Assembly: GCA_021815925.1 (NCBI GenBank)
Contig: JAKAZL010000002.1
Coordinates: 1-64,000, forward strand
DNA from: Pseudomonadota bacterium
GTDB lineage: Bacteria; Pseudomonadota; Gammaproteobacteria; Steroidobacterales; Steroidobacteraceae
Reading direction: 5' to 3'
Length of the DNA stretch: 64,000 nucleotides
The notes beneath the pieces are model-generated. The model made no database searches, had not been told where the DNA came from, and was given only the letters and a program-made list of their open reading frames with translations. Below are positions 46,440 through 52,936 of the stretch, one piece after another (within the stretch, counting starts at the first letter, position 1; each line of letters starts with the position of its first letter). The translations under genes and the position numbers were made by a program.

Positions 46440-47912
46440 TTACTGCACCTCGACCGGCACGAAGATCCGCGTGTCCCCGCGCTGGATCAGCAGCGCCACG
46501 TGGCCCTTGGACTTGGCCACGGCCGCGCGCAGCTGGTCCGGGGTCGAGACCTTCTGACCGTTCGCCGAGACGATAATGTCGCCGGGCTGGATGCCGGCAT
46601 CCTGCGCCGGGCCCCGCACGCCCTGCACCAGCAGCCCGCCGTGCGTGCTCGCCTGCTGCTGCTCATCGGGGCTCAGCGGGCGGACCACCAGCCCGAGCCG
46701 TCCGCCCGGCTGATCGGCGCCGCTGGCGGCCGCGACCGTCTTTTTGCCCATGGTTCCGAGGGTCGCGACGACGTGCCGCTCGGCGTGGTTGCGCCAGATC
46801 GTCAGGTTCACCTTGGTGCCGGGCATCAGGCTCGCCACCTGTACCGGCAGGTCGGACATGTTCTCGATCTTGTGGCCGTTGAGCGCCAGGATCACATCGC
46901 CGGGCTGGATACCGGCGGCCTGCGCGGGGCTCCCGGGCTCGACGCTGGTCACCAGCGCGCCCTCGGGGGCGGACAGCCCGAACGAGTCGGCCAGACCCTG
47001 GTTCAGCCGCTCGATGAGGATGCCGAGCTCGCCGCGGTGCACCTGCCCGGTGGCGATCAGCTGGTTGGCCACGTGCATGGCCACGTTGATCGGGATCGAG
47101 AACGACAGGCCCATGTAGCCGCCGGAGCGGCTATAGATCTCCGAGTTGATGCCGACCACCTGCCCCTGCATGTTGAACAGCGGCCCGCCGGAGTTGCCGG
47201 GGTTGATCGGCACATCCGTCTGGATGAACGGCACGTAGTCGAACTTGTTCGAATTCGGCAGCACGCGGCCCTTGGCGCTGACGATGCCCGCGGTGGCGGT
47301 GTTGTCGAAACCGAACGGCGCGCCGATCGCGAGCACCCACTGGCCGACCTCGAGCTGGTCGGAATTACCGATGTTCACCGTCGGCAGGTGGTTGGCGGCG
47401 ATCTTCACCACGGCCACGTCCGAGATCTTGTCGATCCCGATGACCTTGCCGCGGTATTCCCGCCGGTTGCGCAGCTGCACGGTCACCTTGCTCGCGCCGG
47501 CGACCACGTGCGCATTGGTCAGGATCAGCCCGTCGGAGCGGATGATGAACCCAGACCCCTCGCCCATGATCGGGGTCTGCTGCTGGGGCGTGAACGGGAA
47601 GTTGTGGAAGAACGGGGCGAACGGGCTGTTCGGCCCGAATGGCGTGCCCGGGCCGCTCGTGCCCGAATCGCTCGCCTTCTCGATGACGTGGATGCTCACC
47701 ACCGCCGGGCCGTACTGCTTGACCAGCGTGGCGAAGTCCGGCAGCACGACTGCGACGCCGCCGCGGGGGGCGCTGGAGGTCACTGCCGCGGGCGGCGTAT
47801 TGGCGGCCCGGGCCGAACGCACTCCGTACAGCGCCGCCAGCGGCGCCGCGCCGATCAGGACGCCGAGCGCTAGGGCGATCAGCGGGTTTCGAATCACGGT
47901 CCTCATGCTCAT
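46440..47912 (-). CDS. degQ: DegP/DegQ-family periplasmic serine protease
   Basis: The 490-residue envelope quality-control protease-chaperone has a signal peptide ending near SARA. The trypsin-like domain has His135 (TNAHVV), Asp165 (ISDVAVV) and the nucleophile Ser near 241 (NPGNSGGP), so the triad is complete. Two PDZ domains follow (about 285-380 and 395-490), with AGIQPGDVI and AGIQPGDII. The LA loop with PFAPFFHNFPF is moderate in length. DegP and DegQ cannot be told apart with certainty. Confidence 0.94.
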   Translation of the reverse strand: MSMRTVIRNPLIALALGVLIGAAPLAALYGVRSARAANTPPAAVTSSAPRGGVAVVLPDFATLVKQYGPAVVSIHVIEKASDSGTSGPGTPFGPNSPFAPFFHNFPFTPQQQTPIMGEGSGFIIRSDGLILTNAHVVAGASKVTVQLRNRREYRGKVIGIDKISDVAVVKIAANHLPTVNIGNSDQLEVGQWVLAIGAPFGFDNTATAGIVSAKGRVLPNSNKFDYVPFIQTDVPINPGNSGGPLFNMQGQVVGINSEIYSRSGGYMGLSFSIPINVAMHVANQLIATGQVHRGELGILIERLNQGLADSFGLSAPEGALVTSVEPGSPAQAAGIQPGDVILALNGHKIENMSDLPVQVASLMPGTKVNLTIWRNHAERHVVATLGTMGKKTVAAASGADQPGGRLGLVVRPLSPDEQQQASTHGGLLVQGVRGPAQDAGIQPGDIIVSANGQKVSTPDQLRAAVAKSKGHVALLIQRGDTRIFVPVEVQ

Positions 47913-48024: not shown

Positions 48025-48996
48025 TCATCCGGCGCGGGTGTCCAGCCAATGGACCAGCCCCTGCGTGTTCAGTTCGAGATCCCCCTCGAGCAGCTGCGCG
48101 AGGCGCGCATCGTCGAGCGGGCAGCCGTGGCGGTGCGCCCGCTCGAGCCACAGCTGCCACATGCCGGCGCGGATCGCGCCCGAGCGGTCCGGCGCCGCGG
48201 CGCTGTCGCGGGCGATCCGCTCGAGCGCCCCGATCTGCTCGAGCAGGGATGCTCCGAGCCGCGGCACGTCGGTGACGCGGCTGTAGTGCATCAGGTACAT
48301 CGCCTGCGGGGCATAGGTGAGCAGTCGCTCGACCGAGGCGCGCAGCTGCGCCGGGTCGAACTGGGTGGGCGTGGTGGTCGGGAAGATGAACGCGCCGGCG
48401 GCACTGTCGAGCTCGCGGTAGGAGATGCCGAACGTGTCGCCGGTGAAGATGCCGCGGTGCGCGAGGTCGACGAACACCTGGTGATGCAGCGCGTGGCCCG
48501 GGGTGTGCAGGATCTCGAACTCGCGCCCCGCGAGGCTGAGCCGCTCCCCGTCCCGGGTCACGTGCACGCGTCCGGCCTCGATCGGCTCGATCCGCCCGTA
48601 GAGACGCTCGAAGCGCTCCGGCCCGTACACGGCCCGCGAGCCGGCGATCAGCCGGGCCGGATCGATCATGTGCGGTGCGCCGCGCGGGTGCAGCACGCAC
48701 CGGGCGTTGGGCAGGGCCCGCATGAGCCGGCCGGCGCCGCCGGCGTGATCGAGATGCACATGGGTCAGCAGCACGTAATCGACCGCTTCGGGCTCGAGGC
48801 CGAGCGCGCGCAGCGCCGCGAGCAGATACGGAACCGAGTCATTGGTGCCGACATCGACGAACGCGGCCCGCCCGTCCTGCCTCACCAGGTGCGCGGCGGC
48901 GTGACCCGGGTACAGGTACTCGGTGTCGACGGCGGTGATGCCGTCGGGGTGGCGCGTCAGCCGGGGCGTCGGCAGCGCCGAAATTTCATCGCTCAT
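48025..48996 (-). CDS. MBL-fold metallo-hydrolase
   Basis: The 323-residue protein has an N-terminal metallo-beta-lactamase fold. All metal ligands are present: HVHLDH, HTPGH, the bridging Asp in FTGDTFG, and a later His in YLMHYS. A helical C-terminal extension (about 230-320) follows. The substrate is unknown. ATG at 48996 (MSDEIS) is chosen over a longer frame with no matching family N-terminus. It is divergent from the S9-like gene. Confidence 0.88.
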   Translation of the reverse strand: MSDEISALPTPRLTRHPDGITAVDTEYLYPGHAAAHLVRQDGRAAFVDVGTNDSVPYLLAALRALGLEPEAVDYVLLTHVHLDHAGGAGRLMRALPNARCVLHPRGAPHMIDPARLIAGSRAVYGPERFERLYGRIEPIEAGRVHVTRDGERLSLAGREFEILHTPGHALHHQVFVDLAHRGIFTGDTFGISYRELDSAAGAFIFPTTTPTQFDPAQLRASVERLLTYAPQAMYLMHYSRVTDVPRLGASLLEQIGALERIARDSAAAPDRSGAIRAGMWQLWLERAHRHGCPLDDARLAQLLEGDLELNTQGLVHWLDTRAG

Positions 48997-49031: not shown

Positions 49032-50936
49032 ATGACTTCCCAGACATTCGCCGGCCGGGCGCTCGCCGCCGCGGCACTGCTGGCCCTTTGCCTCACGCCG
49101 CCCTCACCGGCCGCCGTCGGTGCTGCGGCGCCGTTGCCGCCGGCGCTCGCGCAGGCCCTGCAGCGCACGCACCAGTGGCGCGGCGCGCGCTTCCTCGACT
49201 GGCTGCCCGCAGGACAGATGCTGCTCGAGGCGCACACCGGGCACGGCCTGCTGCTCGAGCGTCTCGCCGCTCCGGGCGCTGCGGCACAGGTGTTGGCCAA
49301 CCTCGGCGGCAGCGTACGGCGCGCGCTCGCTCCTCGCTCCGGGGCGCGTCTGCTGTTCGCGCGGCGTGTGGCCGGCGTGACGCAGTGGCGCATTCGCGAA
49401 GGCACGGGCGCGGAACATCCGCTCGGCGGCGGCGCCGCCGTGCTCGGGACGCCGATCTGGTCGGCGGGCGGTCACCGGGTCGCCTTCCTCGGCCGCGCTC
49501 CGGCAGGCACCAGCGAGGCCGTCTACATCGCCGCGGCCACCGGGGGTGGCGCGCCCCGTCTGGTGGCCGGTGCGCTCAAGGGGCGCTGGCGGCTGCTCGA
49601 CTGGACGGGCGACGGCCGCACGCTGTTGCTGGTGCGCGAGGACGGCCCCGACCAGCAGTCGCTCTACACGCTGCGCACGCGCGATGGCGCGCTCACGGAC
49701 GTGCCGCTCCCGCCGGCGCGCATCCGCTCGGCCCGCTTCGCGCCCGGCGGGGCGGCCGTGGAGCTCATCTCCAACCAGGGCAGTGATTTCGAACGGCTGG
49801 TGCAGGTCGGGCTGCGCTCCGGGCACGTGCGGGTGATCTCGGCCGCGCTGCCGTGGGACGTGAGTCGCTTCGCGGTCAGTGCCGACGGCCGCTACCTCGC
49901 CTACACGCTCGATGTGGACGGCCAGAGCCGCCTGCACGTGTGGGACGGGCAGCGCCAGCTTGATGTCACGGTGCCGTGGCTGACGGACGGGGTGATCGAG
50001 AATCTCAGGTTCGATGCGGGCCATCGCCTGGCGTTCACGTTCCAGTCGAGCCGCCAGCCGCCCGAGATCGACGTGTACGATGCCGCCCGCGGGCTCGTGC
50101 AGCGCTGGTGCCGCGGTGCGCCCGGCGCGGCGGCCGTCGCGGCGCGGCTGGTGCACTATCCGACCTGGGACCGGCTCGACGGTCAATGGCGCATGCTGTC
50201 GGCCTACATCTATCTGCCCGCCGGCCCCGCTCCGGCGCCGGTGCTGATCGTGCTGCACGCGCATGTGGCCGGCCAGTTCCGCCCGCGCTGGCGGCCGTTC
50301 CTGCAGTTCGTGGCCAACGAGCTGGGCTACGCGGTCATCGCCCCAAACCTGCGCGGCTCATCGGGATACGGTCGGAGTTTTCGCGAGCTCACCGACGGCG
50401 CGCACCGCCTGGATGCGGTGCGCGACATCGGCTCGCTGATGGTGTGGATCGGCATGCAACCGGGGTTCGATGCGCATCGGATGGTGCTCATGGGCCGCGG
50501 CTACGGCGGCTGGCTGGCGCTCAACAGCCTGGCCACCTTCGACGGGCATCTGCTCGGGGCGATCGACGTTGACGGCATCGCGAACCTTGACGACTACATC
50601 GAGCGTGCCCCCGCCGAGCAGCGCGCGTTCCGCCGGGCGGAGTTCGGCGACCCGCGCGATGCGGGCGTCGAGCGTTTCCTGCGACGCATCTCCCCGCTCG
50701 GGGAGCTCGAGCGGATCCGCTCCCCGCTGCTGATCGTGCAGGGGCTCGCCGGCGACCCGGTGCGCGCCGCGGACGCGCAGCAGCTGGCCTACCTGCTGCG
50801 CTTCCACGGTGTGTCCACCGAGCTGCTGACCGTGGCCACGGCCGGGCGGCGATTCGGGCGCGCGCAGGACCGCCGGACATTGGACGAGGCGGCCGCGCGG
50901 TTCCTGCTGGCGCTCAAGGCCCGGCGCGCAAAATGA
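49032..50936 (+). CDS. S9-peptidase-like exported protein lacking catalytic residues
   Basis: The 634-residue protein has a signal peptide (AAAALLALCLTPPSPA), an N-terminal beta-propeller (about 50-370) and a C-terminal alpha/beta-hydrolase domain like S9 oligopeptidases. It keeps PNLRGSSGYGRSF and MVLMGRGYGGW. The nucleophile elbow, normally GxSYGG, reads GRGYGG, so Gly490 replaces Ser. The His loop, normally DEGHGF, reads TAGRRF, so Arg606 replaces His. The Asp position (AGDPV) is ambiguous. The frame is intact and well formed, so this looks like a conserved non-catalytic protein rather than a decaying gene. Confidence 0.85.
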   Translation: MTSQTFAGRALAAAALLALCLTPPSPAAVGAAAPLPPALAQALQRTHQWRGARFLDWLPAGQMLLEAHTGHGLLLERLAAPGAAAQVLANLGGSVRRALAPRSGARLLFARRVAGVTQWRIREGTGAEHPLGGGAAVLGTPIWSAGGHRVAFLGRAPAGTSEAVYIAAATGGGAPRLVAGALKGRWRLLDWTGDGRTLLLVREDGPDQQSLYTLRTRDGALTDVPLPPARIRSARFAPGGAAVELISNQGSDFERLVQVGLRSGHVRVISAALPWDVSRFAVSADGRYLAYTLDVDGQSRLHVWDGQRQLDVTVPWLTDGVIENLRFDAGHRLAFTFQSSRQPPEIDVYDAARGLVQRWCRGAPGAAAVAARLVHYPTWDRLDGQWRMLSAYIYLPAGPAPAPVLIVLHAHVAGQFRPRWRPFLQFVANELGYAVIAPNLRGSSGYGRSFRELTDGAHRLDAVRDIGSLMVWIGMQPGFDAHRMVLMGRGYGGWLALNSLATFDGHLLGAIDVDGIANLDDYIERAPAEQRAFRRAEFGDPRDAGVERFLRRISPLGELERIRSPLLIVQGLAGDPVRAADAQQLAYLLRFHGVSTELLTVATAGRRFGRAQDRRTLDEAAARFLLALKARRAK

Positions 50937-50954: not shown

Positions 50955-52280
50955 TCAGGCCTGCGGCGCCGTGGCGAAGATCACGGTCACCGCCAGGCCC
51001 CGACCGTCCTCGCCGGCCGACAGCTCGATGGGCGCGCCGTGCGCATCGGCGATCGCCTTGACGATGGCCAGTCCGAGGCCGCTGCCCGGTGCCTGCATGC
51101 CGGGCTGGCGGTAGAACCGGTCGAATACGCGGGTGCGCTCCTCGGGGGCGATGCCGGGCCCGTTGTCGCTGACCTTCAGGCGCACCCGGCCCGCCGCGGA
51201 TGTCTCGCGGGTGAGCGACACGTCGACCCGGCCGCCGGGCGGGGTGTAGCGGACCGCGTTGTCGACCAGGTTGCGCACCAGGGTCGCGATCGCATCGCGC
51301 TCCGCGAGAATCACGGCCGGCTGGTCCTCGGCGATGCCCAGGTCGATCCGGCGCGCATCGGCGAGCGGCACCAGCTCGGCCACCACGTCGCGCACCAGCT
51401 CATCGAGCGCCAGCCGGCCGCGCGCCGGCTCGGCGCGCGGCTCCTGGCGGGCGAGCGCGAGCAGCTGCTCGACCAGCCGGATCGAGCGCTGCACGCCGGC
51501 CGAGAGACGCTCCATCGCCTCGGCGCGCTCGCGGTCCGTTCCGGCCCGCGCCAGTGCGCCGAGCTGCAGGTGCAGCGCCGTGAGCGGCGTGCGCAGCTCG
51601 TGCGCCGCATCGGCCATGAAGGCCCGCTCGCGCCCGAGCGCCCCGGCGAGCCGCCCGAGCAGATCGTTCAGCGCCGCGACCAGCGGCTGCACCTCCTCGG
51701 GCAGCTGCGCGTGCGGCAGCGGCTCGAGCGCTCCCACGCGCCGGGACTTCACCGAACTGGCCAGGCGCTGCAGAGGCTCGAGCGTGTGGCCGACGGCGAA
51801 CCAGACCAGGATGCCGAGAATCGGCACCGCGAGAGCGAACGGCACGAGGGTGCGGACCGCCAGCTGGATCGCCTGCTGACGGCGCACGCGCATCAGCTGC
51901 GCCACCTGCACGACCCGCGTCGGCGAGGCGACGCCGTAGACGCGCCAGCGGCCCTGGCGGGTCGTCACCGTGGAGAACCCGAGTGTGGTGGCATCGGGCA
52001 GCACCGTGTTCGGCGGCGCCCAGATCCGCTGGCCGTCGATGGTCCACACCTGCACGACGAAGCCGTAGGCCGCGGCGCGCGAGGGGATCTCGAGCGGCCA
52101 GAGATATTCGACCGGCTGATCCCGCAGCAACAGTGCCATCTGCTCGAGGTGGTAATCGAAAAACGCGTCCGCCTGCTTGAGGGTGTTGTGGTAGACGACC
52201 AGGCCACCGGACAGCCCCACCACGGCGATGCCGCCGAGCAGCCAGGCCAGCAGGCGCGTGCGCAGCGAACTCATCGTCAT
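50955..52280 (-). CDS. Two-component sensor histidine kinase (QseC/TctE-like)
   Basis: The 441-residue inner-membrane kinase has membrane segments at about 10-32 and 145-167 flanking a periplasmic sensor domain. A HAMP-like linker follows, then the H-box AHELRTPL and ATPase boxes NLVDNAVRYTPP, DNGPGIAPEE and GSGLGLAIVKAI. The signal is unknown. It overlaps the upstream response-regulator gene by four bases (ATGA). Confidence 0.93.
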   Translation of the reverse strand: MTMSSLRTRLLAWLLGGIAVVGLSGGLVVYHNTLKQADAFFDYHLEQMALLLRDQPVEYLWPLEIPSRAAAYGFVVQVWTIDGQRIWAPPNTVLPDATTLGFSTVTTRQGRWRVYGVASPTRVVQVAQLMRVRRQQAIQLAVRTLVPFALAVPILGILVWFAVGHTLEPLQRLASSVKSRRVGALEPLPHAQLPEEVQPLVAALNDLLGRLAGALGRERAFMADAAHELRTPLTALHLQLGALARAGTDRERAEAMERLSAGVQRSIRLVEQLLALARQEPRAEPARGRLALDELVRDVVAELVPLADARRIDLGIAEDQPAVILAERDAIATLVRNLVDNAVRYTPPGGRVDVSLTRETSAAGRVRLKVSDNGPGIAPEERTRVFDRFYRQPGMQAPGSGLGLAIVKAIADAHGAPIELSAGEDGRGLAVTVIFATAPQA

Positions 52281-52936
52281 GTCGGCCGCACCCGGTAGCC
52301 GACCCCGCGCACCGTGAGGATGAAGTCCGCGCCGAGCTTGCGACGCAGGCCGTGCACGTGCACTTCGATGGCGTTGCTTTCCACCTCTTCTCCCCAGCCG
52401 TACAGGCGCTCCTCGATCCGCGCGCGTGCATGAATGGTCCCGGGCCGCTCCATCAGCAGCTGCAGCAGCGCGAACTCGCGCGGCGAGAGCGCGATGTCCT
52501 GGCCGTCCCGCTGCACCGTGTGCGCAGCCGGATTGAGCACCACGCCGAGATGCTCGATCGCCGGGGCGGTCTGGCCGGACTTGCGCCGCAGCAGCGCGCG
52601 GATGCGCGCGGCGAGCTCGTCGAGATCGAATGGCTTGACCAGGTAGTCGTCGGCACCGGCATCGAGGCCCTGGACCCGGTCGGAGACCGCATCGCGCGCC
52701 GTGAGGATGATCACCGGCAGCGCATCGCCCCGCGACCGCAGGCCGCTCAGCACCTCGAGTCCGGCCCGCCGCGGCAGGCCCAGGTCGAGCAGCAGCAGGT
52801 CGTAGGCGTCGGTCTTGAGCACCTGCTCGGCGGTTTCTCCATCGCGCACCCAGTCCACGGTGAACCCGTCCCGGCGCAGCCCGGCGCGGATGGCCTCGCC
52901 GATCATGGCATCGTCTTCAACGAGCAACAGTCTCAC
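52277..52936 (-). CDS. OmpR-family response regulator (QseB-like)
   Basis: The 219-residue regulator has a receiver domain with acidic pocket EDD (8-10... residues 7-9), phospho-acceptor Asp51 (LLLLDLGLP) and Lys in YLVKPFD. A winged-helix DNA-binding domain follows, with LSPREFALLQLLM and VRGVGYRVR. It is the first gene of the pair with the kinase. The 95-bp gap to divergent rsmG probably holds its promoter. Confidence 0.94.
   Translation of the reverse strand: MRLLLVEDDAMIGEAIRAGLRRDGFTVDWVRDGETAEQVLKTDAYDLLLLDLGLPRRAGLEVLSGLRSRGDALPVIILTARDAVSDRVQGLDAGADDYLVKPFDLDELAARIRALLRRKSGQTAPAIEHLGVVLNPAAHTVQRDGQDIALSPREFALLQLLMERPGTIHARARIEERLYGWGEEVESNAIEVHVHGLRRKLGADFILTVRGVGYRVRPT

Follow-up and report, generated by a model that had tools for sequence, protein, structure and literature searches.

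The gene at positions 49032 to 50936 (+ strand) of the window, by which we mean the whole stretch of 64,000 nucleotides of DNA that was analysed, encodes a 634-residue S9-fold pseudoenzyme. As far as its sequence tells, the protein is a member of the S9 homology family that fails every catalytic feature of an S9 peptidase that we tested. We consider it probable that it is a dead S9-type protein, which would have been converted in place from an active single-copy peptidase in part of one Steroidobacteraceae genus, and which most likely functions as a scaffold or partner binder. Inactive S9 proteins are best known from animals (DPP6 and DPP10), where a single genome also encodes active relatives. 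In the bacterial genus examined here, one and the same gene has, judging by its sequence, an active product in some species and a dead one in others, with intermediates and with repeated, independent losses. Among the literature matches listed, no paper on a clade of bacterial S9 pseudoenzymes was found by title or abstract.

The S9 fold and the lost catalytic residues

The reading frame starts with an ATG and is open throughout its 634 residues. Two lines of evidence place the protein in the S9 (prolyl oligopeptidase) homology family. Firstly, the Pfam profile Peptidase_S9 (PF00326) matches residues 427-626 at 65.4 bits (cut-off 22.6). Secondly, the AF2 model contains an N-terminal beta-propeller and an alpha/beta-hydrolase domain, and S9 structures align with it over residues 37-632. 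The propeller spans residues 35-365 or thereabouts (49134-50126, +), as delimited by the strand pattern of the model and a PD40 match that lies below the Pfam cut-off; the hydrolase domain, delimited by the model and the PF00326 match, covers about residues 366-634 (50127-50933, +). The N-terminal stretch (residues 1-29; 49032-49118, +) is signal-peptide-like, its hydrophobic character and its boundary both being judged by eye, and several orthologues of the main clade described below have a similar start, MT.....GRALAA. An earlier sequence-only reading of this DNA had assumed an intact signal peptide, and by eye the N-terminus does look like one.

The model, which is based on a 60-sequence alignment, has a mean pLDDT of 88.2 and a pTM of 0.89, with pLDDT values under 50 at residues 1-9 and 19-31. 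Its best structural match is the solved acylaminoacyl peptidase 5l8s (Z 36.2, rmsd 2.9, 580 residues), and the ten best rows are all acylaminoacyl peptidases (Z 34.5-36.2, 549-580 residues, 17-20% identity). These enzymes, namely 5l8s and 1ve6 of Aeropyrum pernix with its relatives, are the closest solved folds, and the model of an active orthologue, L073, matches the same ones. The structure prediction thus yields an S9-type fold that is predicted to be intact, as the sequence-only reading had held for both propeller and hydrolase. Two more specific assignments were rejected: the Dpp5 equivalog profile (NF053518) gave 44.7 bits against an NCBIfam curated score of 900, and the lasso peptide isopeptidase profile (NF033523) gave 27.2 bits against a curated score of 400.

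The active orthologues (e.g. L073, L078 and L084) occupy the same gene position, are about 40% identical to the window protein, and have an intact elbow GGSYGG, an intact NDPRVP motif and a His loop reading EGHGF or EGHDF, all of which are lost in the window protein. The codon of the former nucleophile, GGC (50499-50501, +), specifies Gly490 in the elbow MGRGYGGW, where active orthologues have Ser. According to the alignments, the codon of the former catalytic acid (50751-50753, +) specifies Gly574 in place of the Asp of NDPRVP in active relatives, and that of the former catalytic base (50847-50849, +), His in active orthologues, specifies Arg606 in the loop TAGRRF. In the phmmer alignment, the elbow falls opposite the Ser motif of the amino acyl peptidase 5l8s and the His loop opposite its His motif. 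Furthermore, the alignments show that the former oxyanion motif HGGP has become HAHV (residues 409-412; 50256-50267, +). Thus, whereas the acylaminoacyl peptidases are active enzymes with a Ser/Asp/His triad, the window protein has none of the three: neither the Ser of a GxSxGG elbow, nor the catalytic Asp, nor the catalytic His. As is expected of a pseudoenzyme, the catalytic motif has been lost in the sequence. The replacement of Ser by Gly490 and of His by Arg606 in a 634-residue protein had been noticed before and stands; the extent of the loss had been understated, as the change of Asp to Gly574 and that of HGGP to HAHV had been missed.

Distribution, order and genomic context of the losses

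A search of 58 genomes of the genus at E<=1e-60 detected an orthologue in 52 of them, and the motifs of all 52 were read. The triad is intact in 23 orthologues, two of which were read on partial genes, and broken in 29, which would make the label "S9 family peptidase" wrong for about half of the genus. Asp and His are both lost in 28 proteins, and Ser is lost as well in 27 of these. A main clade of 22 proteins, including that of the window, has Gly490 and lacks Asp574 and His606. In the six remaining, sister proteins, HGGP has changed to PGGR (five) or PGGQ (one), Asp is lost, His is replaced by Asn (five) or Asp (one), and the nucleophile position holds Ala (five) or Ser (one). One further broken protein, L086, lies elsewhere in the tree, with a GAADGG elbow and RGGP, and keeps Asp and His. 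The named collection contains the same 27 relatives and, in addition, L083, in which Ser and His are lost and Asp is kept.

The loss is carried by 28 separate genomes of the genus, which rules out a sequencing artefact, and decay in the window's genome alone is ruled out because the loss is common to 28 proteins. The sequence-only reading had posed the question of whether the substitutions are shared by orthologues, and the loss of Asp and His is indeed common to all 28. It had also named the combination that would speak against it, normal orthologues together with decay in this gene only; normal orthologues do exist (23/52), but the loss is old and not confined to the window's genome.

Four of the six genomes of the genus without an orthologue also lack both neighbouring genes; in G020 and G021, likewise without an orthologue, the neighbours found sit at contig ends, and gene loss is thus not implied. 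In a sample of 396 genomes of the order, taken from a larger group, a DNA pattern for GRGYGGW matched 17, of which 14 belong to the genus. The other three matches fall in frames of 72, 12 and 48 amino acids, the last near a contig end, that do not look S9-like; in this set, the GRGYGGW elbow was not found in S9-like frames beyond the genus. The pattern for the sister-clade elbow matched 17 of 217 genomes of the family, but since ordinary Ser elbows fit it too, it does not discriminate.

In a tree of 76 proteins computed without the motif columns, from which L109, L115 and L117-L119 had been dropped, the 28 inactive proteins form one clade (SH-aLRT 100, stem 0.40) that splits into the sister group (SH-aLRT 98) and the main group (SH-aLRT 100, stem 0.55). 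A more careful tree of 45 of the 76 rows, 19 of them from the clade and again without the motif columns, supports the clade with 100/100 (bootstrap/SH-aLRT). On the tree there are at least three changes in triad state, namely in the 28-member clade, in L083 and in L086. L083 (510-2513), with the elbow GQGYGGY and the His loop EGRDF, stands beside the intact L089 and L116; L086 (4872-6821; the same gene as L153) has an omega of 0.104 against the intact L092. By sequence, L083 and L086 are independent inactivations; with these two further cases, catalysis seems to be something that this S9 family can do without.

Within the clade, the states are graded, from a Ser that has lost its Asp and His partners to Ala and then to Gly. 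Active genes encode the nucleophile by TCN, or by AGC in three cases; at this position the sisters with Ala have GCN and the main group has GGN, so that the path from Ser through Ala to Gly takes one base change per step. An order that would suit these codons is that Asp and His were lost on the shared stem, after which Ser changed via Ala to Gly; the Ser of L104, in the sister group, is either retained or regained. L113 (4866-6743), an orthologue on a long branch, has an odd elbow, GESQGGA, and a changed HGGP, and keeps Ser, Asp and His. Two records titled as Klebsiella pneumoniae MAGs, L097 and L107, carry the S9 locus and are placed among the other relatives by the tree; these species labels look wrong.

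In the window, the S9 gene lies between a divergent gene for a metallo-beta-lactamase-fold protein (MBL; 48025-48996, -; PF00753, 92.8 bits; start at 48996 set by eye) and a convergent gene for a sensor histidine kinase (HK; 50955-52280, -; PF02518 and PF00512), followed by a response regulator gene (RR; 52277-52936, -; PF00072 and PF00486), the last two being used as synteny markers. Of the 72 named loci, active and inactive, 62 have an MBL-fold gene upstream of the S9 gene. Seven of the ten loci without it begin near a contig end, two belong to distant proteins (L118 and L119), and one (L109) has none. Downstream, the named loci have one of two gene sets, histidine kinase with response regulator or tRNA deacylase with TatC. 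Of the 52 genomes, 51 yielded only one match at E<=1e-60, the exception being G042, in which an additional match, with 30% identity, is more distant. Active and inactive genes share a neighbourhood and occur once per genome in 51 of 52 cases, which argues that the enzyme was converted in place. An active twin arising from duplication was considered and rejected, as 51 of the 52 genomes have no second match at this threshold. More distant S9 genes are present: the window's genome has four PF00326 matches at E<=1e-10, probably including the S9 gene described here, and the 22 main-clade genomes have between two and nine.

Constraint after the loss and alternative explanations

We took as reference 100 hydrolase-domain positions that 36 active proteins hold invariant at a level of at least 95%, and compared five active-site segments (residues 405-418, 484-500, 511-548, 566-585 and 594-612), which we chose from the sequence, with the rest of the domain. 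L083, L086, L103 and L113 were dropped from the active set in this analysis and in the comparison of rates with neighbouring genes. The main clade keeps 12 of 48 active-invariant positions in the segments and 40 of 52 elsewhere (Fisher 3e-7), and the sister clade keeps 20 of 48 and 45 of 52, respectively (Fisher 3e-6). A control, an active subclade of nine proteins, keeps 48 of 51 in the segments and 52 of 62 elsewhere. Of 265 shifts of the mask along the domain, 7 reach the contrast of the main clade and 5 that of the sister clade, and none of these is more than six residues away from zero. Pairwise identities in the segments and in the rest of the domain are 0.783 and 0.682 for the active proteins, 0.641 and 0.761 for the main clade, and 0.835 and 0.851 for the sister clade. 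The propeller identities of the active proteins (0.554) and the main inactive clade (0.556) indicate that the two sets are of like depth in that domain. So the catalytic region has been released, while constraint on the other parts of the hydrolase domain is no weaker than it was.

It is mainly because constraint left the active-site segments that we prefer scaffolding or partner binding over retained peptide binding; the sequence-only reading had offered both, and the former is the better guess. A related explanation would be that the old catalytic pocket was remodelled to bind a peptide or another ligand, the protein then being an exported binding protein or a co-receptor. We regard this as unlikely, although it survives better than the other alternatives. 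On the one hand, the RGSSGYG segment (436-450) keeps eight of its nine active-invariant positions, and the propeller, which in S9 enzymes gates the pocket, is predicted to be intact. Moreover, 11 positions have become invariant in the inactive clade as a whole. Some of these fall within the chosen segments (e.g. Leu519, Asp521 and Arg578) and could point to a remodelled binding site; His506 is also newly invariant. On the other hand, the segments of the main clade are less conserved than the rest of the domain, the reverse of what is seen in active proteins, and the main clade keeps, at the level of at least 95%, none of the eight active-invariant positions of the His loop and 3 of the 17 in segment 511-548.

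It is far less probable that the gene is a slowly decaying relic without function. Measured against its neighbours, the main-clade protein has about twice the evolutionary rate of the active orthologues, with median distance ratios to MBL, RR and HK of 2.16, 3.60 and 2.36 versus 1.09, 1.97 and 1.38 for within-group pairs with a neighbour distance of 0.05-0.6, which indicates that part of the constraint is relaxed. The corresponding ratios of the sister clade are 1.61, 2.33 and 1.26 (six pairs); the HK ratio of 1.26, not being above the active value of 1.38, speaks against a plain story of acceleration. Once the triad was lost, the positions of the nucleophile and of His came to hold various residues, as a relic might show. 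In the same vein, the active-type L114 (2958-4780, in G042), which has an intact triad and lies outside the clade, matches in two frames that split near query residues 343-354, reflecting either a real break or an assembly fault.

The codon-level data argue against a relic. In a pairwise codon model, 13 main-clade pairs have an omega of 0.093-0.215 and 4 sister pairs one of 0.058-0.080, compared with 0.047-0.191 in 13 active pairs; these are close pairs picked by hand, some of which share branches, and an omega of 1 is rejected in every one of them with a likelihood ratio above 45. All 17 inactive pairs thus show purifying selection after the loss, as a pseudoenzyme should. No internal stop was seen in the 28 inactive genes over the parts covered; the window protein and 25 of its 27 inactive relatives have at least 620 residues, the other two being cut by a contig end. 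Much time has elapsed, since the identity of the inactive proteins to the window protein goes down to 46%, and in the rest of the hydrolase domain conservation equals or exceeds that of active proteins. The view of the sequence-only reading that this is a maintained pseudoenzyme is borne out by the clade-wide loss, by dN/dS values well below 1 and by a fold predicted to be intact.

Slightly less probable still is that the protein remains an enzyme through a migrated nucleophile or base, of which cases among pseudoenzymes are described (PMC10211241) and for which the new invariant polar residues His506, Asp521 and Arg578 might be cited: there is no Ser, Thr or Cys among the 11 clade-wide new invariants and only one (Thr292, in the propeller) among the 33 of the main clade, the oxyanion motif is altered too, and only 11 of the 22 main-clade proteins have Asp575 beside the lost acid.

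Inactive relatives elsewhere and the possible role of the protein

Human DPP6 and DPP10 are S9B proteins with a replaced nucleophile, Asp standing in place of Ser in DPP6 and Gly651, in the elbow GKGYGG, in DPP10, which keeps His759 and Asp727 and is presented as a modulator of Kv4 channels (PMC4350108). The window protein resembles both in combining a propeller and a hydrolase fold with a replaced nucleophile Ser (Gly490), and its elbow, GRGYGG, is close to that of DPP10. We take the likeness of the elbows as convergent. Unlike DPP10, the window protein has not kept the His and Asp of the triad (Arg606 and Gly574). Furthermore, DPP6 and DPP10 are human type II membrane glycoproteins, whereas the window protein is bacterial and presumably periplasmic. 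BEM46 proteins are not known to have a propeller. An S9-type BEM46-like pseudopeptidase of Trypanosoma brucei is described as being without predicted active-site residues (PMC4376731), as is the window protein, and differs in being a single eukaryotic gene, with no role given in the passages that describe it.

We infer that the window protein is probably an envelope scaffold or a partner-binding protein that works as DPP6 and DPP10 do. It would be made, exported to the periplasm and work without peptidase chemistry, acting through those regions of its hydrolase domain that lie away from the former catalytic pocket, much as DPP10 acts with its channel partners. That the role is most likely one of a scaffold is suggested by the shift of constraint, and the job probably needs the shape of the enzyme but not its chemistry.

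It is possible, if somewhat doubtful, that the periplasmic S9 ancestor of the family was itself endowed with a structural or partner-binding role, which would be why catalysis was lost at least three times at the same locus while the gene was kept and no twin is found there. If so, the family would be a graded natural series from enzyme to scaffold, of which the Asp/His-less Ser, Ala and Gly stages are extant. The locus in this genus makes it testable what role the S9 fold has without its chemistry, and whether the active orthologues already have that role.

As a putative partner of the inactive S9 protein, the DegQ/HtrA-like protease encoded upstream of the MBL gene (46440-47912, -; Trypsin_2 and PDZ domains) may be proposed, on weak grounds. 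The gene immediately upstream of MBL is DegQ-like in all 23 testable inactive named loci (four more cannot tell) and in none of the 31 testable other loci (12 cannot tell); this adjacency is weak evidence because one rearrangement on one branch is a single event. At the DegQ position, the four active loci whose upstream frames were listed all have methylcitrate-cycle-like genes, and three of the four have oxidoreductase-like genes as well, these names having been given by eye.
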